A DNA stretch of 64,000 bases from Amphiura filiformis (lineage: Eukaryota; Echinodermata; Ophiuroidea; Amphilepidida; Amphiuridae): contig NC_092639.1 of NCBI RefSeq assembly GCF_039555335.1, positions 32,520,353 to 32,584,352 of the forward strand, read 5' to 3'. The position numbers and the translations under genes were made by a program. The notes below the pieces were generated by a model. That model searched no databases. It worked only from the letters and a program-made list of their open reading frames with translations, and was not told the origin of the DNA. Shown here in pieces: positions 654 to 64,000 of this stretch; positions within the stretch are counted from its first letter, which is position 1, and every line of letters begins with the position of its first letter.

Positions 654-765
654 TTATTTCCTTAGGCCCTGATATCTACTCGGATCTTGCACCCTGTACT
701 CAGTATAGCCATCTTCAGATACATTGACGGATCCGTGGTTTTCATCCATCCTTGCGCCGTTGGTT
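654..765 (-). CDS. Ig-like receptor A, last exon (ITAM-like tail)
   Basis: Terminal coding exon of receptor gene A. On the minus strand an acceptor (CGTTTTAG) precedes one base completing a split codon. Then follow 36 codons and TAA. The donor of the main exon (GTAAGT at 1856-1851) leaves CA, and this exon supplies A, giving CAA (Gln) and an unbroken frame. The peptide ends GYTEYRVQDPSRYQGLRK. Its tyrosines at 20 and 31 of the exon are 11 apart, as in an ITAM (YxxL-x6-8-YxxL). However, the +3 residue of the first motif is Tyr instead of Leu/Ile, so it is ITAM-like and not a perfect ITAM. The gene B exon at 7949-8060 has the same length (112 bp), phase and tyrosine positions, with 14 of the last 18 residues identical. 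This conservation between paralogues is the best evidence that the exon is real. The role, phosphotyrosine signalling at the plasma membrane, is inferred. Confidence 0.8.
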
Positions 766-1202
766 CTAAAACGTACAAAGGAAGTATAATAAATAAAGAA
801 AATAGATATTGGTAAATAAATAATACGATAAATAATCATTTAAAAATAAGTACAGTAAATAACTAAATTGTTACCCGAATAAGGTCATGGCATAGCTTCC
901 TTTTTAGCCAATTTTATTTTTTGGCCACCGCCTCCTCAAACTCCATCGCCTTGTATCACTGCAAAAGTCATTGACCAATCGGGTTATGAATTGCGAGTAC
1001 AAAAAAGTTATACAATTATCTAATTATCTAATAATCAGGGTATACGGTAACGATGGAAATCCTACGTACTTTGGTCACCACACCGAAAATCACTCATTTG
1101 TTGGCAAAACCCTTATACTTGCAGACAGTAAAGTTCACTTAGCCATCTTCCAGTAAGTATTTTGATCGTAATCTGGAGATTAGTTGGAACAATATATTTG
1201 GT

Positions 1203-1648
1203 GGCACCCGTCACTCAGAAGACCCGTTACTCAGAAGGCCCGCTATTCAGAAAATCCGTCAAATTCTGAATCGAGGACTTGTTTTCATTTAAAATGACAA
1301 GCTAACCAGAAGACCCACTAAATCAGAAATCCCGTTAAACAGGATCCCGTTAAAATACTTCTGAGTAGCGGGCCTTCTGATTAACGGACCCTTTGCAGGG
1401 TTAGTGTTAGGGTCAGGTTAGGGGTTAGGTTAGGGGTTAGGGTTGGAAACAGCCCGCTTGTCAGAAATAAAATTCTGAGTAGCGAGACTTTTACATAAAA
1501 TTCAATAAAAAGCCCACTATTCAGAAAGTCCGTTATTCAGAAGGCCCGCTACTCAGAAAATTCTGACTAGCGGGCCTTCTGAATAATGTGTTTTCTGAAT
1601 AGCGGGTCTTCTAACTACCGGGTCTTCTGAGTGACGGGCTGCACCCAT
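1203..1648. repeat. Inverted-repeat element built of CCCGCTAYTCAGAAG units
   Basis: Lies in the intron of receptor gene A. Its ends are inverted copies of a (C)CCGTCACTCAGAAG block. The interior repeats CCCGCTATTCAGAAG variants in both orientations (for example 1210-1260, 1355-1380, 1510-1590). The middle contains telomere-like TTAGGG-type repeats. I saw no coding capacity. Confidence 0.75.
1398..1446 (+). repeat. Telomere-like TTAGGG tract
   Basis: About 50 bp of degenerate GGTTAGGG/GGTTAGGTTAGGGG repeats in the middle of the inverted-repeat element in gene A's intron. A similar tract in the opposite strand sense lies at 29268-29390. Confidence 0.75.
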
Positions 1649-1856
1649 ATATTCAAGGAAGATAAAAAAGAGTTTTTGTACCCGTCGAGTATCAGGAGAA
1701 ATTAGTCAAGAGCAAGTTTTACGACAAGCAATAATTTCATCAATATGAAATGCAACAAGACCATATCCCTAGTGTGGTTTGACCCAAATTTGTTCTAAAG
1801 TTATATTTAAAAAAATACACATAACAATGCAATATTTATATATTTATAAAACTTAC

Positions 1857-2860
1857 TGTCGAATGCCTTCATTCCGAAGATCTGGAAGCGCCTGTGTGTA
1901 TCCGTAGTCGTCAACGTCACCTTCCTGATCATGCTGTCCGCCAGTTGCTTGTTGCATCTGTCTTGATCTGTGGTTGATGGGGACCCGATCAGGAAGCGGT
2001 ACAATATACCCATTGTCATAATCATCATCAGTTAGCGTGCTGTTGTTAGTGAAAGCGTTGTTTGGTCTTTCTCCTGGATTGTTGGTCTGATGGTCCTGCG
2101 CGGACATATGAGGCAATGAATGTTGTGCCTGCTGGTGTGACTGAATAATCCTAGTATTGGCATTTGCTTGTGATTTGCGGCGTTGAAAACTAATGCCCTG
2201 TGTGTAAGCGAAATACATCAAACCTTCTACAACGAGAACGACGATGACAGTTACGGCAGCAGTAATTCCCACTACCTTGGCTGTGAAGCTTTGGCTTTGA
2301 CATGCACATGATGAACCAACAGTGGTCAGGATATCAGTATTACCTGATATCGCGGATTGCACTGTGGTCATAAACTGCATGTTGGAATTTGGAGCTACAA
2401 ATAAGTTTGTCTGCCCTGGAAGTAAGACTTGCCGCAGGCTCGTGACTTCGGAATCGAAGTACGAGCACCAGTATTTGCCAGCATCATTTAGTGTGGTTCC
2501 ACTTATATGTAATAAGCAAATATGTATGGCATCCGACTCATTTACCCCATTTTGAATCCGTTCATACTCAAACGTATATACGCCATGACTACCTTTAGGG
2601 CTCATGACATGTTCTGTCATATTCTCTTCTGCGAAGAAAAACCTGGAGTCATCAATGTTATTTGCTGTCCAATCTACAATCCACGAAATACGGTCTCTCG
2701 TAGTCTGTCTACCTGTCAATGTGCAGTTTAATGTCAACGAGTCACCTTCTACAACCAGTTTATCAGAAAGTTCTTTTGACAGAAGCTTAATTTGACCGAG
2801 TACATTCCTTATACTGAAGACACACATAAAAATTGTAACTTTCATTCTGAATTCAATCAT
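1857..2860 (-). CDS. Ig-like receptor A: V-type Ig, transmembrane and tail exon
   Basis: Encodes the body of a single-pass cell-surface receptor. From the ATG at 2860 there is a short hydrophobic leader, then a V-type Ig domain: Cys46 in DSLTLNC, Trp60, and Cys132 in DAGKYWC. Three N-glycosylation sequons follow or overlap it. A Thr/Ser-containing stalk leads to a transmembrane helix at about 196-219 with Glu212 inside it (VVLVVEGLMYFAY). The polar tail holds two tyrosine modules, DNGYIVPLPDRV and DYGYTQALPDL. The open frame reaches a TAA at 1853-1855, but that stop lies in CAGTAAGT, a strong donor. Splicing at A|GTAAGT joins the 654-765 exon in frame and gives about 371 residues. The 5' end is uncertain: TTCAG at 2816-2814 is also a plausible phase-2 acceptor and matches the Ig-exon acceptor of gene B, so the leader may come from an unseen upstream exon. 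Ligand unknown. Confidence 0.85.
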
Positions 2861-3156
2861 TTTTTGTAACAATTGTCAGATTTAATATACCACACACAAA
2901 ATAAAAGAGAGCTTAGAATAAATGTCCAAGTATCTCTGCTTCGAAAACAACAACTATATATATACAACAGCAATGACAACAGAAAATAAACTTGATGACA
3001 GCGAATAAACACGAACATATATACCCAGCTGCGCAACGATTTACCTGAATGAATAATTTACATGAACTTGATTATTCAAAATTATTGACCCAAAAAACAA
3101 AACAAAGATCTATCACAGGACGTATAGCAAGTAATATGCCCAATAAAAGAGACAAA

Positions 3157-3560
3157 CCTGGTTCCTCGATCAAAAAAACAGGTTATTCACCGAGAAACCT
3201 GGTTTCTCGATTGAGAAACCAGGTTATTCAAAAACCTCGTCAAGTTTTTGTAAAAAAACTTGGTTTCTTTTTCGAAAAAAAAACAGGTTTATCGAAAAAG
3301 TAGCTTTTTCAATGGAGAAACAAAGTTCATAAAATCGAGAAACCAGGTTTATCGAATTTGAAACGCCAAAATACCCCTCTTTCGGTGAAAAACTTGGCTT
3401 CTTGATCGAGAAAGCATGTTTTTGGACCAAGAAACTAGGTTTTCAAAACTTGGCTTCTCAAATCGATAAACATTTTTTGAGTTTCAAAAGCACATGCTGT
3501 ATTTGAAAAGTCCGGTTTTAAAAAAACCTGGTTTTCGTTTTTCGATCAAGAAACAATATT
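3157..3560. repeat. Palindromic GAGAAACCAGGTTTCTC repeat cluster
   Basis: A degenerate run of about 20-bp units of the form GAAACCTGGTTTCTCGATTG on both strands (clearest at 3195-3240, 3325-3360 and 3395-3470). The 84- and 68-codon frames here are by-products of the repeat. It sits just upstream of receptor gene A. Confidence 0.7.
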
Positions 3561-3727
3561 TCTCATTGTGGATAATACGGGCCATACACAGACGTGTAAT
3601 CCGACAGGTTGTTCCGAGACGTGGGAAGCCCGATCATCAGTGCTGGCCCTTTTAACATCTCATTTATGTCCTTTATTTCATTTTCGCTTTTGCTAGGGAT
3701 CCTGAACCCGCAGGGCCCACGGACTTA

Positions 3728-4123
3728 AGCCCGATCCTGACTCCACTTCGTAGCGCGATGCGATGCTTTTCAAACATCGCAGCATCGCGCGATGCAATTA
3801 AAATGTACATTTTAATTTCGTCTCACGATGTTGCGATGTTTTAAAAGCATTTGGGGTCTGCATCTCCTTTTAAGGTCATTCTACCGAATTTGATTTCCAG
3901 CGTGTACGGCTGCGATATCGCAGCGCGATGCGAAAAAGTTGAACATTGTTCAACTTTTTCGAGGACCAAAATTTCCACCACGCGATGAGAATTTTCACCG
4001 CTGACCTCGTAAAAACCTGGCTCAGATTACAGTTTTTATAGCATCGCAGCCATAGACATACCACCTAGTTTGTCTGGGATCGCAGCATCGCATCGCGCTG
4101 CGATTTGGAGTCAGGATCGGGCT
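3728..4123 (-). mobile_element. PIF/Harbinger-type MITE, copy 1
   Basis: A 396-bp element bounded by inverted AGCCCGATCCTGACTCCA termini and flanked by direct TTA repeats (3725-3727 and 4124-4126). Subterminal tracts are rich in ATCGCAGCGCGATGCGATGC motifs. It is homologous in inverted orientation to 8281-8650, which has TAA duplications. TTA/TAA (TWA) target duplications are characteristic of PIF/Harbinger. Against copy 2 it has an extra stretch near its right end (about 4050-4080). No transposase is present. Confidence 0.85.
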
Positions 4124-4374
4124 TTAGTCCACCCTGTCCACTCGCTTGCTACGCCCCTCATCGATCACCGTAATTTTATCAGTTGTGGAGGCTTTCTTCT
4201 GCTCGAGTATAAAAACAGCAAAACTGGTTTTTGTATAGTCTTATTCGTCAAGAAGAATTATTAAGGAGAAGGTCTCTCCCAACCAAGTGGGAAAAGGGAC
4301 AGCTGCCGAGGAACAATTCTAGGTGGAACTATTGATTAATGATTCCACTAAAATGGCCTTCCCAAGTTTGTTTT

Positions 4375-4510
4375 CTGAAAACAGCTGGGGTTCTAGTTGA
4401 AAATGTCCAAAATGAGCTTTCAAATTGAGGATATCCGATTTCGAACTATATTCTGCTGGATTATTTCGCCTTTGGATACTTTAAAAATCTGGATTTCCAA
4501 CAATCACTAC
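4375..4510. repeat. Dispersed repeat related to 21768-22062
   Basis: Shares several segments (TGGATTTCCAACA, AATGTCCAAAATGAG, AAATTGAGGAT and their complements) with 21768-22062, suggesting diverged copies of one noncoding element. Boundaries are approximate. Confidence 0.45.
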
Positions 4511-4953
4511 TGGACAATGAACCCGGGAACCGAACCCCTCTATATATAGTGTATGCAATAAACCAACCGGAATGGTATAACAATTGAAATGGCAGCCATG
4601 CTGGAGGACAGTTCTAAGATAACTTAAGATGACAGAGGGACATGTCTCTAGATCGATTCCACAACCATTCATATACCTATCACACGTTTTATTGTATTAT
4701 CATGCGAATTTTCCCGTGGTACCTTTAATATGGAGGACAGAATTTTATTTAAATGAGGATGACTCTGTTATGAGTGACGTTGTATTGCATACCCTCTATG
4801 AGGGATGTGCATCTCTTTTACCCCTTTCCTAACAGTAAATTGAGAATGCATACTGCAGTTACTGTCCGTTTTCCTATACACAATACACAGTGCTCTTTCC
4901 CATTGACGCGTGACCTCTACAAATAGCCCTACGTTAAAAGTATGGGGATATGA

Positions 4954-5240
4954 CTAGTTAACGTCGCTGTGTGAAAAATAACCGGCCAATATTAAAAGTA
5001 CTCTTCTAAAGTTCTAGAAAATATAGTTTTTAACATGTCCTAAATTTGTAGCTAATTTAGATGTTTGGAAATATTCGTACTTTGGTGTTTTAGTTAATGT
5101 TATAGGTAATAGTACATTGCCTAGTTAACGTCGCTGTGTGAAAAATAACCGGCCAATATTAAAAGTACTCTTCTAAAATTCTAGACAATATAGTTTTGTA
5201 ACATGTCCTAAATTTTTAGCTAATTTAGGTGTTTGGAGAG
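4954..5240 (+). repeat. 167-bp direct tandem duplication
   Basis: CTAGTTAACGTCGCTGTGTG begins at 4954 and again at 5121. The following ~115 bases match closely, with a few substitutions (AAAGTTC/AAAATTC, ATTTGTAG/ATTTTTAG). This is a recent local duplication of noncoding sequence. Confidence 0.85.
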
Positions 5241-7948
5241 GGTCGCACTTTTTTGTTTTAGGAAGGATATGTAAACGACAGATAACACCAAAAATATGAA
5301 GAAATTATTTCCAAACCGTGTTAAGTCAACAATCATTATGTTGCTCATTTTCAAGAATGCTGGTTTACAAAAGCACGCCATTGTCTCATTTCGTGAACAA
5401 AGGTACACATACCATTGTTTCCTTTCGTTTCCTTTATAATCGGTTACCCAACTGAAGCTATAATACCAGCTTTATTGCGATATCGCACATGAAAACAGAC
5501 ACTTGTGCACAACCAGAGAAGATCCGATTTAATCAGTTGAGCTGTTTCAATGAGTGTTATCTTGGTTTAATAGCGTTTAATGGGGTTAAGTCCTGCAAAG
5601 GTCGAGATGAATTCTACTGTAGACATGACTGCATCATGGTTGCTACAATTGCGTAAAGCGTGGTCCTGGTTCTCATATCTGCAGACCTTCGGCGAACTTA
5701 CGACAATGCTCCTTCCTCTTTCCAAGCAGAGAGTCAAGTTTGCAGATACCAAGAGCATCTGAGTATGATTCAATCCAGGATTATTCTACATGTACAAGCT
5801 CTTTCTTGAATTGCTTCAATGTCCTTAGACTGTTCGGCAGAAATGATTGGCTGCCACACAACACTCTTCTTCTGCACTTTTCTCTATTAAAACCAAATCT
5901 TTTGAGAGTTCGAATCAGAGCATAGTGCAGTTATGTCCACGGCAAATTCACCGTGACCGTTCCAGCCATAAACCCGCTTAGTGAAGATTAAACCGAGATA
6001 TGCAGTACTAAGCCATTATAGTAATCGATTGTCCAATGCAAATTTATTACCACGTGATAATATTAACCAAATGAGCGATCGAATTGTCCGCTACGGTCGA
6101 CTAATCCAATCGATAATGACGCTATTGACATGTACAGGCGGAGCTCCACTGACCGAGTTTTGGGGTATTTTTCAATGGTTTGTTGTCATTTACTCATCAA
6201 GGCGGTCCCCCGTTATTATAAGGATTATGCTAATGATTTAAAGATTGACATGTAGAGAATAAAACATACTTGATTGACAGAAAGTACTAAATTTCGTGAC
6301 ACCCCTCTTCCAAATGCAACCAAGCCAGGGCGGCCCGGTGAAGCAAAATGTGCATTGGAATAACACGGGAGTTTGGATATAGATGGTAGGATTTTTTTCT
6401 CATACAAATGTATGTATGGTCCCCCGTTATTAAAGCTTGTACCGGGTTGAAAATTCAGATATTTTGAAAAGCATAAGTAATTGAAACATAGAGCAAGTAC
6501 TAAAATCATAGCTTTTTATGAGATTTGATACGGCGCTGAAGTCTATAGCTATTCCAAAATCAGTTCCAGACCCGGTTTCCAGACGCAAATTTGTATGTTG
6601 TTACAAGGAATTCAAAGTAATTTTATCATCAAGTGACCCCATATTGCAAATATAATGCCTTTTTTTCTCATTGGTACGTCGTAGAACTTACCACAGTCTA
6701 TGCATGCAAGAGTCAAATTACACGCACAGTGAGTGGAAAGTGACCAAGCACACAGGCAACGCACACTGGAATACCAAAGTCGATCTAATTCAGAAATTTA
6801 ACTTTTGCTTCTCCAAAATGATGATTGATCACCAAAGTTCTGTGTTATTCCCAAAGCCAACATCTTATATCTGTAAATACAAACCGAACCAGGTCAATAC
6901 CCCATTTCTTTGCCAAGTTCTGACCTTGTAAAGAGTGAAAAATGAGACAAATTATGACTTTTGACTCCTTCCTCCATAGAAAGTATTTCACACATGTTGT
7001 GTTTAAATCCAAATTTGCTACTCTTGAACTTTTGAGTATTTTTATCTAGCTAAAAGTACTGAATGTAAACATAACAAATTATCATTTATCGAGCAAACCA
7101 GATTGTTACCTCAAGATTTAAGAAAGATACGGCAGTTTTGGCACAGTATGAACGCGTTTTGGAGTGTCTGGTACCGTGCTAAGTAGGCGCTGGAAAAAGT
7201 CTAAGAGGCAAATGAGAAGGTATTTGCAATATGCATAGAGGAATACGACATCTATCGTGAGCCAATCTGCATTATGCTGCCTGCAAAAGCCGACGATCAG
7301 GTAAAAATTCTAGAAGTAGCGTGACTAAATATTCGCGTTAATTTCATGATAAGCTTAAAACGCACTGAAAACGCCAAATTGTAGTCACAAAATATATAAT
7401 ATTAGTAAATCACCAAAGCAAATGGTAACGTAGGTATGTGGAAAAGAACTGCAATAACAATAACAAACTATGTGCCCATGCAAAGAGTTGTCTTTTTTGA
7501 AATATCACCAAAAATATCAAATTTTGGAAAAACGTCCCAAAATTTAAAACAAACACGAACCTTCCAAAATAAATACATATTCGCACTCGGCGGCCCAGTG
7601 ACTACTTGCCGCTGTGATTTGGGGTAACTCGTTGCTTCCCCTCTCCAGCTCTGTACTTCAAGCTCGCCCATACCCCACGCCTTAATAAAAGCATAAATAG
7701 ATGTGACTTCGGATATTTCTATTTCTCTACTGTATCATTCAGTTCATTCATGTTTTAAAACCGTTTAGAAATGTCAATCTGTTTAAAAAATCATTTCAGA
7801 ATCCCAACAATACCGAAATAATTAAAACTTTTTTCTGGAATATTCAAAAATAGTGTCGGTATTCTTTTGTCGGGCTTACATTACAAACTTTTTTCCATAC
7901 ATTCAAGATTAGAGTCTATCGGACAAGGACAAGCATACATTGCTTGGA
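5241..7948. other. Gap between receptor genes A and B, nothing recognised
   Basis: No splice-bounded exon, conserved motif or clear repeat was found. Open frames of 60-94 codons (for example 5981-6241, 6225-6509, 6671-6931) have no domain features and no paralogue in the window. The 5' exon and promoter of gene A, if separate, would lie here or nearer 3000. Confidence 0.4.
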
Positions 7949-8060
7949 CTATTTCCGTAAATTTTGATAGTCACTTGGAGCCTGTACTCTATACTGAGTA
8001 TATCCATCATCTCTCGAGCCATTGGCGACGCATTGGTCCTCAGTCAACGTAGGGTTACCC
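7949..8060 (-). CDS. Ig-like receptor B, last exon (ITAM-like tail)
   Basis: Paralogue of the 654-765 exon. The acceptor TTTCACAG is followed by one G, 36 codons and a stop, 112 bp in all. The donor at the end of 11075-11634 leaves CA, so the junction reads CAG (Gln). The peptide ends GYTQYRVQAPSDYQNLRK, with tyrosines at 20, 23 and 31 of the exon exactly as in gene A. The only changes in the last 18 residues are E/Q, D/A, R/D and G/N. Tyrosines and the YQxL box are kept while the first 15 residues have diverged, a pattern suggesting selection on the signalling motif. Whether the whole gene is still functional is doubtful because of its damaged Ig exon. Confidence 0.75.
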
Positions 8061-8280
8061 CTGTGAAAATGAAAAATGAAATTACTTTTTATTATATCAG
8101 TGGTCCAAAATCGACTGGATTGCACGATAAATAACAAATTAAAAAAAACAAAAACAACATCATCTAACTGGGAAGCAATTTAAGAATTCTACGGTACTCA
8201 AATTTCACTCACCGGAGCGCTTTCACCGGGTCAACCGGCGTCTGCAGCAGATGTCATTGCTCTGAAGATTTCCCAGCTAA

Positions 8281-8650
8281 AGCCCGATCCTGACTCCACA
8301 TCGCAGCGCGATGCGATGCTGCGATGCTATAAAAACTGTAATCTGAGCCAGGTTTTTACGAGCTCAGCGTTGAAAATTCTCATTTTAGGTCCGCGAAAAA
8401 GTTAAACAATGTTCAACTTTTTCGCATCGCGCTGCGATATCGCAGCCGTACACGCTTCTGATTGGCTGCTGGAAAATCAAGGTCGGTAGAATGACCTTAA
8501 AAGGAGATGCAGACCCCACATGCTCTTAAAACATCGCAACATCGTGCGATGAAATTAAAATGTACACTTTAATTTCATCGCGCGATGCTGCGATGTTTGA
8601 AAAGCATCGCAGCATCGCATCGCGCTGCGAAGTGGAGTCAGGATCGGGCT
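8281..8650 (+). mobile_element. PIF/Harbinger-type MITE, copy 2
   Basis: A 370-bp element with inverted AGCCCGATCCTGACTCCAC termini and direct TAA target duplications at 8278-8280 and 8651-8653. Same family as 3728-4123, opposite orientation. It lies in the intron of receptor gene B. Confidence 0.88.
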
Positions 8651-8699
8651 TAACACACTACGTAATTCACGACGTTCGCTTACGTTGGACTTAGGTTGT

Positions 8700-9590
8700 C
8701 ATTTACGTTGTAAACACGTAAATCTGTGAACTCGTATTCGTGTAGTGACAACGTTATTTTCGACGTTGATTTTGGACGTTGATATAACATCATTATGACG
8801 TTGTAATGACGTTGTTTCGACGTTGATGCAATGTTTGATCAGACCTGGTGACAACGTTTGAATAATACGTTCAGAAAACGTTACACAAATACGTATCTGA
8901 AAAAAAAATGTAAATTCTTCCATTCCAAGGAGATTGTTGTCCATGCAGCCAAAATGTCTCCATCGTGTCGTTTGACGATCGCCTATAGGCGTGAAACTCA
9001 AAGTATTCCTGAAGATCTAAACTTTGAATTTTTATACGCTCTCCCTTTTTGGGATTGAGCATCATTGTTGCCGGATGTTAATATAATGTCATAATATAAT
9101 GTCATAATCACGTTGTCTCGACGTGATAATATAATGTCATAATCACGTTGTCTCGACGTGGTTAAAACGTGGCTTAAAAGTCATGAACTGACCCAGATAC
9201 AACGTCATCTACGGACGTCGTTAGCACGCAAATTTATGACGTTGTTTCGACGTATAAAGCACGTTAAATAACGCCGTATAAATGTCATGGTCTGACCCCG
9301 ATGCAACGTAATATACGGACGTCGTAATTACGTTAATTTGTGAACTCGTATTCGTGTTATGATTTTCGGACGTTGATATAACGTCATAGTGACGTTATTT
9401 CGACGTTCACAACTTGACGTCGAAACAACGTTATAATGATGTTACATTAACGTTCGGGAATAACGTTGTCACAACACGAATACGAGTTCACAGATTTACG
9501 TACTTACAACGTCCATATATTACGTTTGTACGACTTTATATTACTTTTAGACAACGTTGTAACAACGAAAAATTGTTAGCTGGGTTGTTG
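8700..9590. repeat. ACGTTGT/CGACGTT-rich inverted-repeat element
   Basis: Dense repeats of GACGTTGTTTCGACGTTG type. A block containing GAACTCGTATTCGTGT occurs near 8728-8750, again near 9340-9360, and inverted near 9475-9495. Outer arms of about 50 bp (8704-8757 against 9459-9513) are inverted copies. Open frames here are repeat artefacts. Confidence 0.7.
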
Positions 9591-9850
9591 TTGCTAGTAA
9601 TGTTATTGGAACACCTCCGATGACGTCACAGATGTAGATGAAGTCAAACTGGAAGATGTGGTGGCGCCCCTTGGTTCCGGGGGGTCAGGAGGTTGTCCCA
9701 AACAGGGTCGATGTCTATTACCCTTTGTCACGGTTCAGTCTGGGTCTTATAGTTCTGATATCAATAAAATCCGCTGAAGACGCAGGTTGACCCGGTGAAA
9801 GCGCTCCGGTGAGTGAAATTTGAGTAGCGTAGAAGTCTTAAATTGCTTCC

Positions 9851-10699
9851 TATTTTCGTTTACCGCTACGTATGAATATAATTATATCATCTAAATGTTT
9901 TAATAAAACATTAATATAATTATGTGTAAAAGCACTGTAAATAAGTTACCCAAAAGTGAGCTATTTTAGCTCTTTTGAGAAATAAGATTCGTTAATTATC
10001 TAATCATGTTTACAATCATAAAAAAGATAAAGAATGAACTTGTCAGTTGTTGGCTGCTTAGCAGGGCAAGCAGTGAGTAAAGAAAATATTCAAACAAAAT
10101 ATATTATGGACCATTTTGGAAACGAGAAATTCTGATAAACATGATAAAAGACAGGACAATTTGTCGTCAACGCAGGCGGCTGCGAACGCAACACTGTCAG
10201 CATGGTGGTCAGTCGGTGGCACTGGCCGGATAGTCATATTTGACGCTATATTTGAGAAGTCCTATGTGCCCCTTCTGCAGCCTAATTATTTGTTCTACGG
10301 TCATAGAAAAGATTAACTCAAGCTTGCAAACCTGAAGTCATCAGGACAAGATGTCAAATTCCTGGCCAGGACGATCCAGCATGTGCGTTTGTCGTCATGG
10401 TCGTGTTACACGGTTATTATGTAAACCATCGACATTCAAGGAAAATAATCTTGACACATTCTGGCATACTAAATGTACAGTAAATCGGCACCCTATCCCA
10501 CATATTCAATGTTGATGAAAGCACTTTTGACATTATGCTCTCCATGCACCATGCAACACTGATCGAGAGGAATGGGGAAGGGAAGTTTTTATAATCTCAC
10601 TGAACTGGCATAGGGGGAATGAACAACATATTGTCAAAGTGTGCGAACTATTTTTCCTTGCTTGTAGGTATCGACAGTACGTGTGTGTTTATATGAGAT
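9851..10699. other. Intron sequence of gene B, nothing firm
   Basis: No conserved exon or repeat could be supported. A short frame near 10370-10430 was looked at and rejected (see rejected list). Confidence 0.35.
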
Positions 10700-10714
10700 C
10701 ACATTCACAGAATA

Positions 10715-11045
10715 ATATAATATGTTTTCAAAACGTTATAAACGTATAAATGCGTGTTGGTCAAAACGTTTAATGTCGGGTTATATAAAGCTCATGAAAA
10801 CATCTTGAAACGTTTTATATGAAAAAACACTACAACAACATTTTAAAAATGTCGTCAAAATGTTATTGCAAAATATTTGTTGGTGAACATTTTTGCAACA
10901 TATTTTTGCAACATATTTTGTCAACACTATAATAAATTATGTTTTGCATCAGAAAAAAATCTGGATGTTATTAAAACGTTTTTATACCATTTATATAACC
11001 CGACGTTCAAACCTTTTCTGTAAAACGTTTTACGTTTGATGGGTT
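10715..11045. repeat. AAACGTTTT-rich repeat, related to 58768-59098
   Basis: AT-rich element full of AAAACGTTTT and AACATTTT motifs. A central block around 10795-10880 (GAAAACATCTTGAAACGTTT, then CAAAATGTTATT) aligns with the reverse complement of 58768-59098. It lies next to the gene B tail exon. No coding potential. Confidence 0.6.
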
Positions 11046-11074
11046 TTATCATATCATTTAAATTTGACACTTAC

Positions 11075-11634
11075 TGTAAATCCTGCATATTCTGATCTGG
11101 GATATGCACAACATATTCATCATCGTCATCAACTTCAACCACATCTTGCTGTCGTTCTGTTCCGCCAGGTTCACCTCTGAACTGATCCGGACCAGGCTGC
11201 ACTCGATCTGGATACACCTCTATGTATTCGTCATCAGTCTGCAGTTCTGCTGATGGTTGTTGCTGCTCAATTGTACTTCTTCTGTTTGTCTGGACCTGTC
11301 CTGGATGCATCTCAGTGTACCCAATATTATGTTCTCCCCCTAGCTCTTCATTATGTGGTCCTGGATTTCTGAGTCCAGTTGGTTGTGGTTGATCTGGAGA
11401 GTGAACTGAAGCTTTTCCTGATTTACTTCTGAAAAAGCTTGCGGCTTTTTCTGACTGACTTTGGAAAAAGCGTGCGACTTTTCCTGACTTACTTCTGAAA
11501 AAGCGTACGTAAATGAAGTACAAGAATGCTTCAAATACGAGTAGGACGATGATGGTGATAAGAGCAACAATGCCAGGTGCCAAGCTTTCGCGGCATTGTG
11601 GGGTATTTGCTTCAGTTGGCATATTGGTATTGGC
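11075..11634 (-). CDS. Ig-like receptor B: transmembrane and tyrosine tail exon
   Basis: Paralogue of the 3' half of receptor A's main exon. The frame runs from a phase-0 acceptor (ACACCAG|GCC) through a transmembrane helix (SLAPGIVALITIIVLLVF then EAFLYFIY) that keeps a buried Glu and the YFxY end seen in gene A. Three imperfect copies of a basic FFRSKSGKxA juxtamembrane repeat follow. Then come three tyrosine modules: GYTEMHPGQV, DEYIEVYPDRV and DEYVVHIPDQ. The frame ends at CA|GTAAGT and joins 7949-8060 in phase. The open frame extends a little further upstream to a TGA at 11674-11676 without a convincing ATG, so this is an internal exon. Length is 560 nt. The tail and transmembrane parts are intact and more tyrosine-rich than gene A's. 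The gene's status depends on the damaged Ig exon just upstream. Confidence 0.72.
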
Positions 11635-11643
11635 CTGGTGTAT

Positions 11644-11709
11644 CAAATGTACTGACGGATATTGCCTGATGTCTCAAACGTTACTTGGCGGATAGTGCCT
11701 GATGTCGAT
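11644..11709. repeat. 33-bp tandem duplication beside gene B tail exon
   Basis: Plus-strand blocks 11641-11673 and 11674-11706 both end GATATTGCCTGATGTC or GATAGTGCCTGATGTC and are alignable over 33 bp with several differences. The duplication lies in the proposed 95-bp intron between the broken Ig exon and the transmembrane exon. One copy carries the in-frame TGA. A 33-bp unit keeps the frame. Confidence 0.7.
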
Positions 11710-11729
11710 CTCAGATGCTATAGGCCTAC

Positions 11730-12076
11730 CTGGTAGATAAAATCATTCCCTATAATACAAGTGTCTGTCCTGTAAACATCAGAGTAAACACATGTATATT
11801 GACCAATGTTGTGAATGAAACGCGTAACTCGTCCTTTACATCAGCACCATTCTGAATCTTTTGGTAATTATCTGAGGTGATGCAGGCCATTTAATTCAGG
11901 ACCATTATACTGTGTCATCTGTCTCTGCTGGTTAATATGGTGACTTCAAATTGTCGTAGCTATTAGTATTTACCACGCTAAACACTGATTCTACTGGGGT
12001 TGCTTGATACATGTACCAATTTACCGTGTAGTAAATATCGTGTAACGTGTCACTCGGTTCCACTTGGTTCCTCAAA
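11730..12076 (-). pseudogene. Degenerate V-type Ig exon of receptor B
   Basis: An Ig-like exon in decay. After a good acceptor (TTTTTCTTAAGTTATATTCAG) the frame reads LRNQVEPSDTLHDIYYTVNW, with the Ig core Trp. It reaches TAA about 120 nt later. Ig similarity then continues in other frames: TSDNYQKIQNGAD (compare EYERIQNGVNESD of gene A), then HNIGQYTCVYSDVYR with the second Ig Cys. A GTAGGC donor follows DFIYQ. The distance from the acceptor to this last frame is not a multiple of three, and the region of the first Ig Cys is missing. At least two frame changes plus a stop are therefore needed. It may be a true pseudogene exon, with an intact copy farther upstream, or contain sequence errors. 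Upstream (12140-12165) the CAGTTTGAGG acceptor block is duplicated. Confidence 0.65.
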
Positions 12077-15152: not shown

Positions 15153-15742
15153 TTAAGGGGTGGGGTATGAACGTTTGGACAGTATTTATTGTGGGACATT
15201 AGAGCACATCAGACATATCGAATTGCATTCTGAATACAAAGAATGTCCTTCTGATATCAAAGAATTTTGATTTTTTGAAATTCGCAATGTAATACACATT
15301 TTATGGCAAATGATTAAAAATTGATTTTGATATATAACAGTACTCGAAGTAAACTTTATAAATCTGATGACTTTATCCCAAAACACCAATACAAATTAGG
15401 TCTTTTTGGGAAAAAATCTATATCTTCAATATGAAAGGTCAAAATGTTCAATTGATCGTCGGCTTTTCCTCCCAGCTACATACACTTTAAGAATATGTCA
15501 GTAGATTTATAAAATTTACTTCGAGGACTGTTATATATCACAAATGTGAAAAATATCAAATTTTAATAATTTGTCATAAAATTTGTATTATATCGTGAAT
15601 TTCAAAAAATGAAAATTATTTGATTTCAGAAAAACATTCTTCGTATTCCGAATGCAATTCGATATGTCTGATGTGCTCTCATGTCCCACAAAAAGCAGGC
15701 CTACTGTCGAAACGCTCAAAACGCTCATTCCAGATCCCTTAA
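15153..15742. mobile_element. Long-TIR MITE, TTAAGGG...CCCTTAA family, copy 1
   Basis: A 590-bp foldback. Left arm: GGGGTATGAACGTTTGGACA then GAGCACATCAGACATATCGA. The right arm carries the complement (TCGATATGTCTGATGTGCTC) and ends TTCCAGATCCCTTAA. Other copies: 34734-35388 (full), about 34150-34575 and about 51140-51405 (partial). Confidence 0.82.
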
Positions 15743-30871: not shown

Positions 30872-32866
30872 GGTAGATAGCAATAACTTCTGTATAGCAA
30901 GAATTTAGATAGCAGCAATGCGGTCCACTTATTTATTCTGTATGTACATGCTTATCAATGGTTTGAGCTGCTGTCTACGGTAGATAGCAATAAGTTGATT
31001 AGATTTAATCAGTATAATAAGTGTTGATATACTCTCTATGATGGTAAAAATAATTTGCATAGGCCCTAGATTTATTCAGTATAATACTAATAATTGGAGA
31101 TGCTATCTACGGTAGATAGCAATAATCTGAATAGATTTATTCTGTATTGATAAAGCAAATTTGAACAGATATATTTTGTATATAGCAATAATTCAGGATG
31201 CTATCTACGGTAGATGTTAATAATTCGGGCTGGCATTAGGGTTATATGATATCAACCCGAATGTTGTCATTAATTTGATTAAACTATCTACAGTAGATAG
31301 CAATATTTTAATTAAGCTATCTACGGTAGATAGCAATAATTTTATTAAGCTGTCTACAGTAGAGCAATAAATTGATCAAGCTGTCTACAGTAGATAGCAA
31401 TACTTTGTAATTTGATTAAGCTGTCTACAGTAGATAGCAATAATTTGACTAAGCTGTCTACAGTAGATAGCAATAAGTTGATTATATTTAATCAGTATAA
31501 TAAGTGTTGATATGATGGTAAAAATAATTTGCATAGGCCCTAGATTTATTCAGTATAATAGGCCTACTAATAATTGGAGATGCTATCTACGGTAGATAGC
31601 AATAATCTGAATAGATTTATTCTGTATTAATAAAGCAAATTTGAACAGATATATTTTGTATATAGCAATAATTCAGGATGCTATCTACGGTCGATGTTAA
31701 TAATTCGGGCTGGCATTAGGGTTATATGATATCAACCCGAATGTTGTCATTAATTTGACTACGCTGTCTACAGTAGATAGCAATAATTTGATTAAGCTAC
31801 CTACAGTAGATAGCAATAATTTGATTAAGCTGTCTACAGTAGAGCAATAAATTGATCAAGCTGTCTACAGTAGATAGCAATAATTTGTAATTTGATTAAG
31901 CTGTCTACAGTAGATAGCAATAATTTGACTAAGCTGTCTACAGTAGATAGCAATAATTTGATTAAGCTACCTACAGTAGATAGCAATAATTTGATTAGGC
32001 TGTCTACAGTAGAGCAATAAATTGATCAAGCTCTCTAAAGTAGATAGCAATAATTTGTAATTTGATTAAGCTGTCTACAGTAGATAGCAATAATTTGATT
32101 AAGCTATCTACAGTAGATAGCAATAATTTGATTAAGCTGTCTTAAGCTGTCTACAGTAGATAGCAATAATTTGATTAAGCTGTCTACAGTAGATAGCAAT
32201 AATTTGATTCAGCTGTCTACAGTAGATAGCAATAATTTGATTCAGCTGTCTACAGTAGATAGCAATAATTTGATTAAGCTACCTACAGTAGATAGCAATA
32301 ATTTGATTAAGCTGTCTACAGTAGATAGCAATAATTTGATTCAGCTGTCTACAGTAGATAGCAATAATTTGATTAAGCTGTCTACAGTAGATAGTAGTAA
32401 TTTGATTAAGCTGTCTACGGTAGATAGCAATAATTTGATTAAGCTGTCTTAAGCTGTCTACAGTAGATAGCAATAATTTGATTAAGCTGTCTACAGTAGA
32501 TAGCAATAATTTGATTCAGCTGTCTACAGTAGATAGCAATAATTTGATTCAGCTGTCTACAGTAGATAGCAATAATTTGATTAAGCTACCTACAGTAGAT
32601 AGCAATAATTTGATTAAGCTGTCTACAGTAGATAGCAATAATTTGATTCAGCTGTCTACAGTAGATAGCAATAATTTGATTCAGCTGTCTACAGTAGATA
32701 GCAATAATTTGATTAAGCTATCTACAGTAGATAGCAATAATTTGATTAAGCTGTCTACAGTAGATAGTAGTAATTTGATTAAGCTGTCTACGGTAGATAG
32801 CAATAATTTGATTAAGCTATCTACAGTAGATAGCAATAATTTGAATGACTGGCTACTATAAATAGC
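30872..32866. repeat. 33-bp minisatellite with palindromic CTGTCTACAGTAGATAG core
   Basis: A tandem array with unit of about 33 bp (AAGCTGTCTACAGTAGATAG then CAATAATTTGATT). It is regular from about 31760 to 32860 and irregular before that. Two larger duplications are visible. A block of about 480 bp occurs at about 30985-31275 and again from about 31460. Another block repeats with period 307 (the CTTAAGCTGTCTACAG junction at 32141 and 32448). Because 33 is divisible by three, repetitive open frames of 93 and 127 codons appear; they are not genes. Lies in an intron of the mucin-like gene. Confidence 0.95.
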
Positions 32867-34733: not shown

Positions 34734-35388
34734 TTAAGGGAAGGGGTATGAACGTTTGGACAGTATTTATTGTGGGACATTAGAGCACATCAGACATATC
34801 GAATTGCATTCTGAATACGAAGAATGGCCTTCTGATATCAAATAATTTTGATTTTTGAAATTCGCAATGTAATACACATTTTATGGCAAATCATTAAAAT
34901 TGATATTTTTGATATTTAACAGTACTCGAAGTAAACTTTATAAATCTGATGATTTCTACCTAAAGTGTACGTAGGTGGAATGAAAAGCCGACGATCAATT
35001 GAAAATTTTGACCTTTCGTATTGAAGATATGGATTTTTTTCCCAAAACACCAAAAAAATTAGGTCTTTTTGAGAAAAAATCCATATCTTCAATATGAAAG
35101 GTCAAAATTTTCAATGTGATCGTCGGCTTTTCCTCCCAGCTACATACACTTTAAGACTATATCATTAAATTTATAAAATTTACTTCGAGGACTGTTATAT
35201 CTCAAAATGTGAAAATGTCAAATTTTAATAATTTGTCATAAAATTTGTATTATATCGTGAATTTCATAAAATGAAAATTATTTGATATCAGAAAGACATT
35301 CTTCGTATTCAGAATGCAATTCGATAGGTCTGATGTGCTCTCATGTCCCACAAAAATGCTGTCAAAACGCTCATTCCAGTTCCCTTAA
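34734..35388. mobile_element. Long-TIR MITE, TTAAGGG family, full copy
   Basis: A 655-bp foldback bounded by TTAAGGGAAGGGGTATGAAC and GCTCATTCCAGTTCCCTTAA. The arms are about 300 bp (TCAGACATATCGAATTGCAT against its complement). The TA inside TTAA could be the target duplication. Confidence 0.85.
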
Positions 35389-54376: not shown

Positions 54377-55315
54377 TGCAACACATCGTACAACCTAAAA
54401 TCAAAATTAATCAAAACGAGACTGATTGACCTTATCCAGAGTGTGCTGGAGTCCAAGAGAGAAACTATCCTGGGAAGTCTTAAGAGTGAAGTGGTTTACT
54501 TCTCTTCATACCAGAAATGTACTCTCGTGACCAAAGAAGGTACTGCAGAGGTCCCAGAATTTACCACAGAACAAGAAGAAGCTGACACAAAGGTTATCTT
54601 GCACGCGCAGCATGTCATGAGAAATAATGATAGTGGCACAGTCATCATCCGATCTCATTCTGGTGACATAGATATTGCAATCCTAGCGTTATCACACTTC
54701 ATTGATGATGGTGCAAGAGTTGTACTAGATACAAACACAAGCACATATCACAAGGTTTTTAGAATGAGCGACATAGACCTAACACCAGCACAGAAGACAT
54801 CGCTGATAGGATTTCATGCCTTCACAGGCAATGACTACAACTCCTTTTTTTGTAAAGGTAAACAAACTTGTTGGAAGTTACTTGAATGCAAGCCTAAATT
54901 CCTGGATACCTCCTCCAATCTTGGGGTGTCTTCTGCTGAAACCCTGGAGGCAGACCTTGAAGAATATGTTCCCTTGCTGTTTGGCATAAAGTGTAAAAGC
55001 GTCAACGAGGCCCGGTATATACTCTTTGATCGGAAATTTACCAAACAGAACAAGATCACTGATGTGTCATTGCTACCACCATGCCAGCATACACTGAGAC
55101 TTAATATTTTGAGATCAAACTTTATCGCTAGAGAATGGCGCTCAGCAGTCCTTTGTAGTTATGAGGCTGGAAACATTGCTGACAATGGATGGACAGAATC
55201 ACTAGAACTGAGATGGCTCGAGAAGGTTATGCCTGATGATATGCAAGAACTGTTTATAGATCATGAATGTGAAGACTTTGTAGGCAACAGCGATGAAAGC
55301 GATACAGAGGATTAA
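54377..55315 (+). CDS. Partial transposon protein with XPG/FEN1-like nuclease pattern
   Basis: The open frame runs from after a TGA at 54374-54376 to TAA at 55313-55315. There is no ATG near its start, and the first 12 codons lie in the inverted repeat, so the N-terminus has been lost. Counted from GTG 54443, it carries E-E-A-D-T (45-49), D-I-D (75-77), and G-N-D-Y (129-132) followed by KGK (138-140). The order E-A-D ... D-x-D ... G-x-D-Y, with hydrophobic strands before the acidic pairs, is that of PIN/FEN1/XPG nucleases, where these acids bind metal. The C-terminus is acidic. In an autonomous element this domain would be the C-terminal part of a larger transposase polyprotein. The frame is undamaged over 290 codons, suggesting recent activity of the family or a recent insertion. 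Family assignment is from motif memory, not a search. Confidence 0.6.
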   Translation, partial: CNTSYNLKSKLIKTRLIDLIQSVLESKRETILGSLKSEVVYFSSYQKCTLVTKEGTAEVPEFTTEQEEADTKVILHAQHVMRNNDSGTVIIRSHSGDIDIAILALSHFIDDGARVVLDTNTSTYHKVFRMSDIDLTPAQKTSLIGFHAFTGNDYNSFFCKGKQTCWKLLECKPKFLDTSSNLGVSSAETLEADLEEYVPLLFGIKCKSVNEARYILFDRKFTKQNKITDVSLLPPCQHTLRLNILRSNFIAREWRSAVLCSYEAGNIADNGWTESLELRWLEKVMPDDMQELFIDHECEDFVGNSDESDTED

Positions 55316-62904: not shown

Positions 62905-64000
62905 CCATGCATAGCTATGTATAGCCATGCATAGCTATGTATAGCCATGCATAGCTATGTATAGCCATGCATAGTTATGTATAGCCATGCATAGCTATGC
63001 ATAGCCATGCATAGTTATGTATAGCCATGCATAGCTATGTACCTTTTGCTTGTCGAGTATCCTTTGATTTTATTTTGTTTAATATGCACCATCGGATAGA
63101 TGAGTGCCACTGATGTAAAAGCAATTTCCAAATAAAAACTTGAAACTTAAAAACTACAACAATTTCATGGTAAATGCCATGCATAGCTATGTATAGCCAT
63201 GCATAGTTATGTATAGCCATGCATAGCTATGTATAGCCATGCATAGTTATGTATAGCCATGCATAGCTATGTATAGCCATGCATAACTATGTATAGCCAT
63301 GCATAGCTATGTATAGCCATGGATAGCTATGTATAGCCATGGATAGCTATGTATGGCCATGTATAGCCATATGTAACCATGTCATAGCCATGTATAGCCA
63401 TGTATAGCTATGTATACAGGGCTGCTAACTTTGAAAAACACATTTCAGTATTCTCAAACCTCAAAATCACCATAGTGCTGTGATCAAGCAGAAATCAGCA
63501 TTTTGAAAATATACTTACGGTTCTCAAGATATTTCTTTATTCAAGGCATTTATTTATTTGTACCTTTTGCTTGTCGAGTATCCTTTGATTTTATTTTGTT
63601 TAATATGCACCATCGGATAGATGAGTGCCACTGATGTAAAAGCAATTTCCAAATAAAAACTTGAAACTTAAAAACTACAACAATTTCATGGTAAATGCCA
63701 TGCATAGCTATGTATAGCCATGCATAGTTATGTATAGCCATGAATAGCTATGTATAGCCATGCATAGTTATGTATAGCCATGCATAGCTATGTATAGCCA
63801 TGCATAACTATGTATAGCCATGCATAGCTATGTATAGCCATGGATAGCTATGTATGGCCATGTATAGCCATGCATAGCTATGTATAGCCATATGTAACCA
63901 TGTCATAGCCATGTATAGCTATGTATAGCCATGTATAGCCATGTATAGCCATGTATAGCCATGTATAGCCATGTATAGCCATGTGTATAGCCATGTGTAT
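62905..64000. repeat. 20-bp satellite ATAGCCATGCATAGCTATGT, open at right edge
   Basis: Tandem 20-bp units with C/T and GC variants. They become irregular (ATAGCCATGT) toward 64000 and continue off the window. The array is interrupted by a unique segment present twice (63041-63178 and 63562-63699, offset 521 bp, nearly identical). So array and insert were duplicated together. The 61-63-codon minus-strand frames are artefacts of this duplication. Confidence 0.95.

Follow-up and report, generated by a model that had tools for sequence, protein, structure and literature searches.

What is the short tyrosine-rich stretch that closes two neighbouring genes of an ophiuroid for, and do both genes still encode the same kind of receptor? 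The genes lie on the minus strand between positions 654 and 12,076 of a 64,000-nucleotide stretch of Amphiura filiformis DNA (assembly GCF_039555335.1, contig NC_092639.1, positions 32,520,353 to 32,584,352; hereafter the window). A preliminary description, made from the letters alone, had proposed a pair of immunoglobulin (Ig) receptor paralogues that share an Ig domain, a transmembrane (TM) helix, a tyrosine-bearing tail and a 112-nucleotide last exon resembling an immunoreceptor tyrosine-based activation motif (ITAM). We find the TM helix, the tail and the predicted last exon in both genes, and the Ig domain in gene 1; gene 2 has a frameshifted remnant of it. The most likely reading of these sequences is that gene 1 encodes a receptor with a single V-type domain and a compact exon for docking SH2-domain proteins, ITAM-like in action, whose signal may be activating or inhibitory.

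A conserved cassette in the last exons of two paralogous genes

The two genes end in the same arrangement of parts, with splice sites that in both are predictions from sequence:

654..765, minus strand: last exon of gene 1, 112 nucleotides including the stop codon (predicted)
657..710, minus strand: conserved cassette of gene 1, GYTEYRVQDPSRYQGLRK, with 14 of 18 residues the same as in gene 2
766..1856, minus strand: predicted intron of gene 1, 1091 nucleotides, GTAAGT...TTTTAG, phase 2
7949..8060, minus strand: last exon of gene 2, 112 nucleotides including the stop codon (predicted)
7952..8005, minus strand: conserved cassette of gene 2, GYTQYRVQAPSDYQNLRK
8061..11074, minus strand: predicted intron of gene 2, 3014 nucleotides, GTAAGT...TTCACAG, phase 2

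Gene 1 starts with the ATG at 2860; its frame stays open as far as the GTAAGT donor at 1856 and would resume at 765 after TTTTAG. The frame of gene 2 runs to a GTAAGT donor at 11074 and would resume at 8060 after TTCACAG. The common CA|GTAAG(T) donor and the Gln junction codon (CAA in gene 1, CAG in gene 2) proposed earlier are thus recovered as predictions in both genes. In each, the phase-2 GTAAG donor reads CAG-TAA (1856-1851 and 11074-11069), and a retained intron would bring a stop right after the junction Gln, with loss of the cassette; this may mean nothing, because every phase-2 GTAAG donor after CA gives the same stop.

Recounting confirmed tyrosines at residues 20, 23 and 31 of both last exons and an identity of 14 among the last 18 residues. 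Of the codons for these 14 residues, 9 differ synonymously, which is why gene conversion was rejected as the source of the identity. The dN/dS check suggested in the preliminary description supports its contrast between the two exon halves: the second (18 codons) has a dN (nonsynonymous divergence) of 0.19 with dS (synonymous divergence) saturated, compared with 1.30 and 1.74, respectively, in the first 18 codons. In a neutral simulation (the gene 1 sequence with 17 random changes), 14 matches were reached in 4 of 200,000 runs, a P that is indicative only, since it comes from one sequence pair and the half-exon was picked after the preliminary description had pointed to it. We conclude that the cassette, judged from this one sequence pair, was under purifying selection, by which we mean past selection and not evidence of selection on gene 2 today. 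The divergence pattern and the simulation, along with the paralogy scores and the Ig profile of gene 1 given below, thus support the earlier suggestion that selection has acted on a tail cassette in this pair of Ig-receptor-type genes.

Paralogy of the two genes is supported by their TM and tail regions and by their last exons. When gene 1 was compared with the 64-kb window by tblastn, the TM/tail part of gene 2 was found at E 3.4e-6 (29% identity) and its last exon at E 8.4e-5 (75% over 20 residues), and the next matches, the Ig remnant of gene 2 among them, came at E 1.7; in the reverse search, gene 2 found the last exon of gene 1 at E 7.7e-5. The DNA alignment of the TM and tail parts scored 195.5 against a maximum of 135 among 200 control stretches. 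That of the 5' parts scored 215.5 against a control maximum of 211.5 (200 controls), and because this margin over the best control is tiny we relied on the protein-level remnant instead. The TM segments (dN 0.35, dS 0.73) have 12 of 22 residues in common, among them a Glu of the inner half; in the exon-1 tails (dN 0.66, dS 2.46), 41 of the 93 aligned residues match. The membrane-proximal cysteines read CAC in gene 1 and are a single Cys in gene 2.

Gene 1 and its V-type Ig domain

Upstream of its intron, gene 1 consists of a single long exon with the following parts:

1857..2860, minus strand: exon 1, with a signal-peptide-like start, one V-type Ig domain, a stalk, the TM helix and the larger part of the cytoplasmic tail
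2381..2797, minus strand: V-type Ig domain (Cys..Trp..DAGKYWC)
2204..2275, minus strand: TM helix (hydropathy of 2.53 across 19 residues); Glu212 lies in the inner half
1982..2032, minus strand: tail module 1, TDDDYDNGYIVPLPDRV
1880..1918, minus strand: tail module 2, DVDDYGYTQALPD

Scanned alone against Pfam, the Ig domain passed the cut-offs of V-set (28.5 bits, cut-off 26), Ig_3 (30.4, cut-off 30) and ig (27, cut-off 21.8), and the whole exon-1 protein stayed just under each of them (24.7, 27.5 and 21.1 bits). In a PDB sequence search the best matches to the domain were antibody variable domains (E 6.7e-4), and SIRP-alpha, Fc gamma receptor III, TYRO3 and VEGFR2 also appeared among the best 60 of 226 matches (E up to 1). 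The domain contains a PGQTNLFV strand that we take to be J-like. Across all six frames, the window has two instances of the pattern [DNE]x[GA]xYxC, and each gene holds one of them. Structure models made from the single sequence were poor (mean pLDDT, a per-residue confidence score, of 41 and 52), and the best Foldseek match was a diabody at E 0.04, with none at E <= 0.001. Overall, the profile matches indicate that the V-type Ig domain of gene 1 is intact.

Within the intron of gene 1, a CAGAAGGCCCGCTA-type unit is repeated in both direct and inverted orientation (1191-1653), and a short telomere-like run of CCCTAACC lies near 1440-1391.

The cassette as a proposed ITAM-like docking site

In the literature consulted, an ITAM is defined as Yxx(L/I)x6-12Yxx(L/I) (PMC3528668) and an immunoreceptor tyrosine-based inhibition motif (ITIM) as (I/L/V/S)xYxx(L/V) (PMC2832619). 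With Tyr and other hydrophobic residues admitted at the first +3 position, a relaxed ITAM occurs once in each of the two tails, against 0.03 and 0.01 expected in shuffled tails. The distance of 11 residues between Y20 and Y31 equals that in an ITAM whose spacer has 7 residues, and the string [DE][DE]GYxx[LY] is found in both tails (0.0 expected in shuffles). The first tyrosine has an acidic residue one to three positions ahead of it (EDGY and DDGY), in line with the acidic position of the ITAM definition in PMC2832619, and the 14 tail tyrosines together have 24 acidic residues at positions -4 to -1, a number equalled in none of 20,000 shuffles. Thus, the label "ITAM-like" suits the predicted cassette as far as spacing and acidic context go. 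With a permissive ITAM pattern, however, a six-frame scan of the window gives 47 occurrences, so that the motif alone is weak evidence. Many of these occurrences come from repeats reading like YTWLYMAIHG on the minus strand at 63205-63987.

On this reading, gene 1 would encode a single-pass receptor of type I that carries one V-type Ig domain, and its last exon would serve as a compact docking cassette for SH2-domain proteins. Ligand clustering could allow a Src-family kinase to phosphorylate Y20 and Y31, after which a Syk-like kinase with tandem SH2 domains might bind the phosphorylated cassette. The acidic tyrosine modules of exon 1, which lie upstream of the cassette, would potentially recruit further SH2 proteins, and the conserved membrane Glu may permit assembly with a partner chain. 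We place the probability that the cassette works in this activating, Syk-type mode at about 0.42.

Several published observations are in favour of such a mode. In human tetherin, the motif that recruits Syk is a non-canonical one, YDYCRV (PMC4161388), and therefore a deviation from YxxL need not abolish Syk recruitment. The hemITAM of Dectin-1 has a Gly ahead of its tyrosine that, when moved into DNGR-1, restores cytokine signalling (PMC5932189). Homologues of Syk/ZAP-70 are reported from several invertebrates, where they co-occur with CARD-CC/Bcl10 (PMC5978004), and a list of sea-star egg transcripts includes those of Syk, Src-family kinases, JAK2 and STAT-like proteins (PMC11593052).

A number of results weigh against the Syk-type reading. 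A strict ITAM is present in neither tail, which narrows the earlier term "ITAM-like": the first tyrosine has Tyr at +3 in both, the YxxY in place of YxxL that had already been pointed out, and for the same reason the hemITAM-type pattern [DE][DE]GYxxL is found in neither tail. The ITIM pattern, in turn, occurs at Y31 in both (SRYQGL and SDYQNL), with 0.14 and 0.16 such sites expected per shuffled tail when Ile was also allowed at +3. An acidic residue at -1, which ZAP-70 favours, precedes only 6 of the 14 tail tyrosines. Another 5 have Gly there, and Gly at this position makes Y132 of LAT a poor, slowly phosphorylated ZAP-70 substrate (PMC8085316). The cassette lies unsplit within one exon behind a phase-2 intron, and vertebrate ITAMs are described as intron-split, both in G6f-like and the "classical ITAMs" (PMC3528668) and in the ITAM of CEACAM members, where phase-0 introns divide the YxxL units (PMC2832619). 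When the TM segment was searched against PDB, the single match was an ATPase at E 10 and no known ITAM chain was returned. Finally, the conservation of the cassette is known from two sequences only, and gene 2 as a query reaches the TM/tail part of gene 1 at no better than E 2.0.

The Pfam LAT profile scored 11.8 and 11.1 bits on tail fragments (E 0.21 and 0.34; cut-off 27), which is not significant, and did not appear among the matches at E <= 1 when the entire exon-1 protein of gene 1 was scanned. PDB sequence searches with the last exon and with the tail modules of gene 1 returned no matches. Because these searches gave no such match, we claim no homology from any likeness to DAP12, CD3 or LAT.

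Since Y31 fits the ITIM definition in both tails, an inhibitory or mixed signal is possible. It could be that gene 1 encodes an inhibitory receptor whose functional site is the ITIM at Y31, recruiting SHP-type phosphatases, with the remaining tyrosines accessory. The Leu-ending sites of both tails, in which Ser29, Tyr31 and Leu34 are identical, are in keeping with this; however, our pattern scan found no second ITIM and no immunoreceptor tyrosine-based switch motif (ITSM) in either tail, whereas most CEACAM1 proteins have two such motifs (PMC2832619). It would also leave the conserved Y20-T-x-Y23-R-V-Q and its acidic-Gly lead-in without an explanation, and we regard such an inhibitory receptor as somewhat unlikely.

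A different division of labour would make the tail a docking and trafficking device, with Y23 (YRVQ) a STAT-type YxxQ site and Y31 (YQxL) an endocytic YxxPhi signal. YxxQ sites bind STAT3, and YxxPhi signals bind adaptors. Both YRVQ and YQxL are kept in each gene, but such sites are frequent by chance: YxxQ, found in both tails, is expected 0.78-0.80 times and YxxPhi 1.05-1.27 times per shuffled tail. Y20 would be explained by neither, and we judge this arrangement unlikely.

Gene 2 as a damaged duplicate

Upstream of its long intron, gene 2 retains the following parts:

11075..11673, minus strand: stalk/TM/tail exon, about 200 codons open, 11673 being the first codon past a stop
11509..11574, minus strand: TM helix, 12 of 22 residues as in gene 1, Glu at the matching position
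11778..11866, minus strand: frameshifted Ig remnant, frameshift-tolerant alignment score 48 (25-35 in 14 control regions)

The frame of about 200 codons stayed open in none of 2000 base shuffles. Farther upstream, only 89 nucleotides align to the Ig domain of gene 1, and protein-level alignment and a frame check found no intact Ig domain in gene 2 but only the frameshifted remnant. The pieces KIQNGAD, NIGQYTC and the TM helix sit in three separate frames, and stops are present in all three frames of the Ig region; a gene 2 start at 12076, the upper limit of the region in the preliminary description, is therefore unsupported. We also considered a rescue by splicing, in which an intron at 11729-11635 would rejoin the NIGQYTC frame to the TM exon. 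This was rejected because the frame change between KIQNGAD (11860) and NIGQYTC (11810) would persist, and the 50 nucleotides between them are too short for an intron. Gene 2 is thus best described as a neighbouring duplicate that has kept its TM/tail region and cassette and has no readable Ig domain, and the pair, as sequenced, as one predicted Ig receptor and one damaged duplicate.

Two other accounts concern gene 2 alone. Compatible with any reading of the cassette, gene 2 might still be live and encode an adaptor-like signalling chain that lacks the Ig domain and begins with Met 11622 (MPTEANTPQCRESLAP, then TM, tail and cassette). Its frame of about 200 codons, its intact, in-frame last exon, and the retained membrane-proximal Cys and TM Glu fit this; however, we saw by eye no signal peptide ahead of the TM helix, and the Ig remnant immediately upstream is better explained by decay, which makes a live chain rather improbable. 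That the broken Ig is an assembly or sequencing error (indels) and both genes are intact, as the undamaged downstream frame and last exon might suggest, is more doubtful still, given the involvement of three frames, the stops that close each piece in the frame it uses, and the fact that only 89 nucleotides of Ig align.

Copies of an element like a miniature inverted-repeat transposable element lie between the two genes and inside the gene 2 intron (3725-4050, 326 nucleotides, and 8318-8653, 336 nucleotides); they are in opposite orientation, 86% identical and have internal inverted repeats.

Other features of the window

In a tandem array at 32132-32861, STVDSNNLI(K/Q)L repeats make up two open frames that overlap. 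A 312-residue open frame at 54377-55315, which is either an exon of an unknown protein or what remains of one, has no Pfam match up to E 5. Members of a repeat family (15153-15694 and 34734-35374) are up to 94% identical and occur in the window in several copies and both orientations, and TAGGCCTA, which we take to be common in echinoderms but do not count as evidence of origin, occurs five times. Among the neighbouring open reading frames, none of the 12 scanned (of 24 listed) reached a Pfam cut-off. An Rfam scan gave nothing at gathering score, and a bacterial-code scan found no tRNA. One scan of viral contigs with gene 1 brought up nine stretches that fit a pattern, none of which encodes a relative.

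Comparison with known systems

Among the papers listed by a word-based literature search, most subscription papers being outside its scope, we recognised none as describing a gene pair of this kind. Gene 1 carries a DDYxNxGYxVxLPD-like string, similar to what we take to be the string of LAT itself; the Pfam match to LAT (PF15234) is, as noted, not significant. LAT is not known to have an Ig domain.

The oyster protein CgIgIT2 (PMC11999971), like gene 1, is an invertebrate Ig receptor with its own cytoplasmic tyrosine activation motif, and the only one with its own ITAM that we met in the literature examined. By its description it has five Ig domains, a TM segment and a classic ITAM, whereas gene 1 has one V-type domain and no strict ITAM. 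A hemocyte protein of the ascidian Halocynthia (PMC5465252) is likewise an invertebrate membrane protein with ITAM signalling and is described as having two ITAMs. Teleost G6f-like (PMC3528668) is an Ig receptor that signals through its own tail, with four Ig domains, a YxN site and an intron-split ITAM; a YxN site (YDN) is also found upstream in gene 1, but the cassette here is unsplit after a phase-2 intron. Since these three proteins exist, receptors with their own ITAM are already known, and the present gene would be a variant of this known kind.

The hemITAM of Dectin-1 has an acidic lead-in. The Gly ahead of the tyrosine is common to the Dectin-1 type and the cassette (PMC5932189), although the former are C-type lectins with YxxL and gene 1 is predicted to be an Ig receptor with YxxY. 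The paired ITIM/ITAM receptors of the CEACAM1 type (PMC2832619) are IgV-type proteins with tyrosine tails, and the ITIM definition used for them fits Y31 here; by description, however, the YxxL units of the ITAM members are split by phase-0 introns, unlike the cassette.

More speculatively, and in our view quite improbably, a single chain might unite an Ig domain of the V type with an acidic TM residue for chain pairing, an unsplit ITAM-like kinase-docking exon of independent origin and LAT-like acidic tyrosine modules acting as the scaffold, and thus form a self-contained immune receptor. Were this true, the roles of a vertebrate receptor, a CD3/DAP12-type adaptor and LAT would be combined in one polypeptide, and the Ig-less duplicate would be on its way to a pure adaptor. 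A short exon that keeps its tyrosine spacing despite saturated synonymous sites makes a clean probe for searches and offers a docking site that can be put to the test. Should the cassette dock Syk, an unsplit exon following a phase-2 intron, where vertebrates have a split form, would point to more than one origin of ITAM-like docking.

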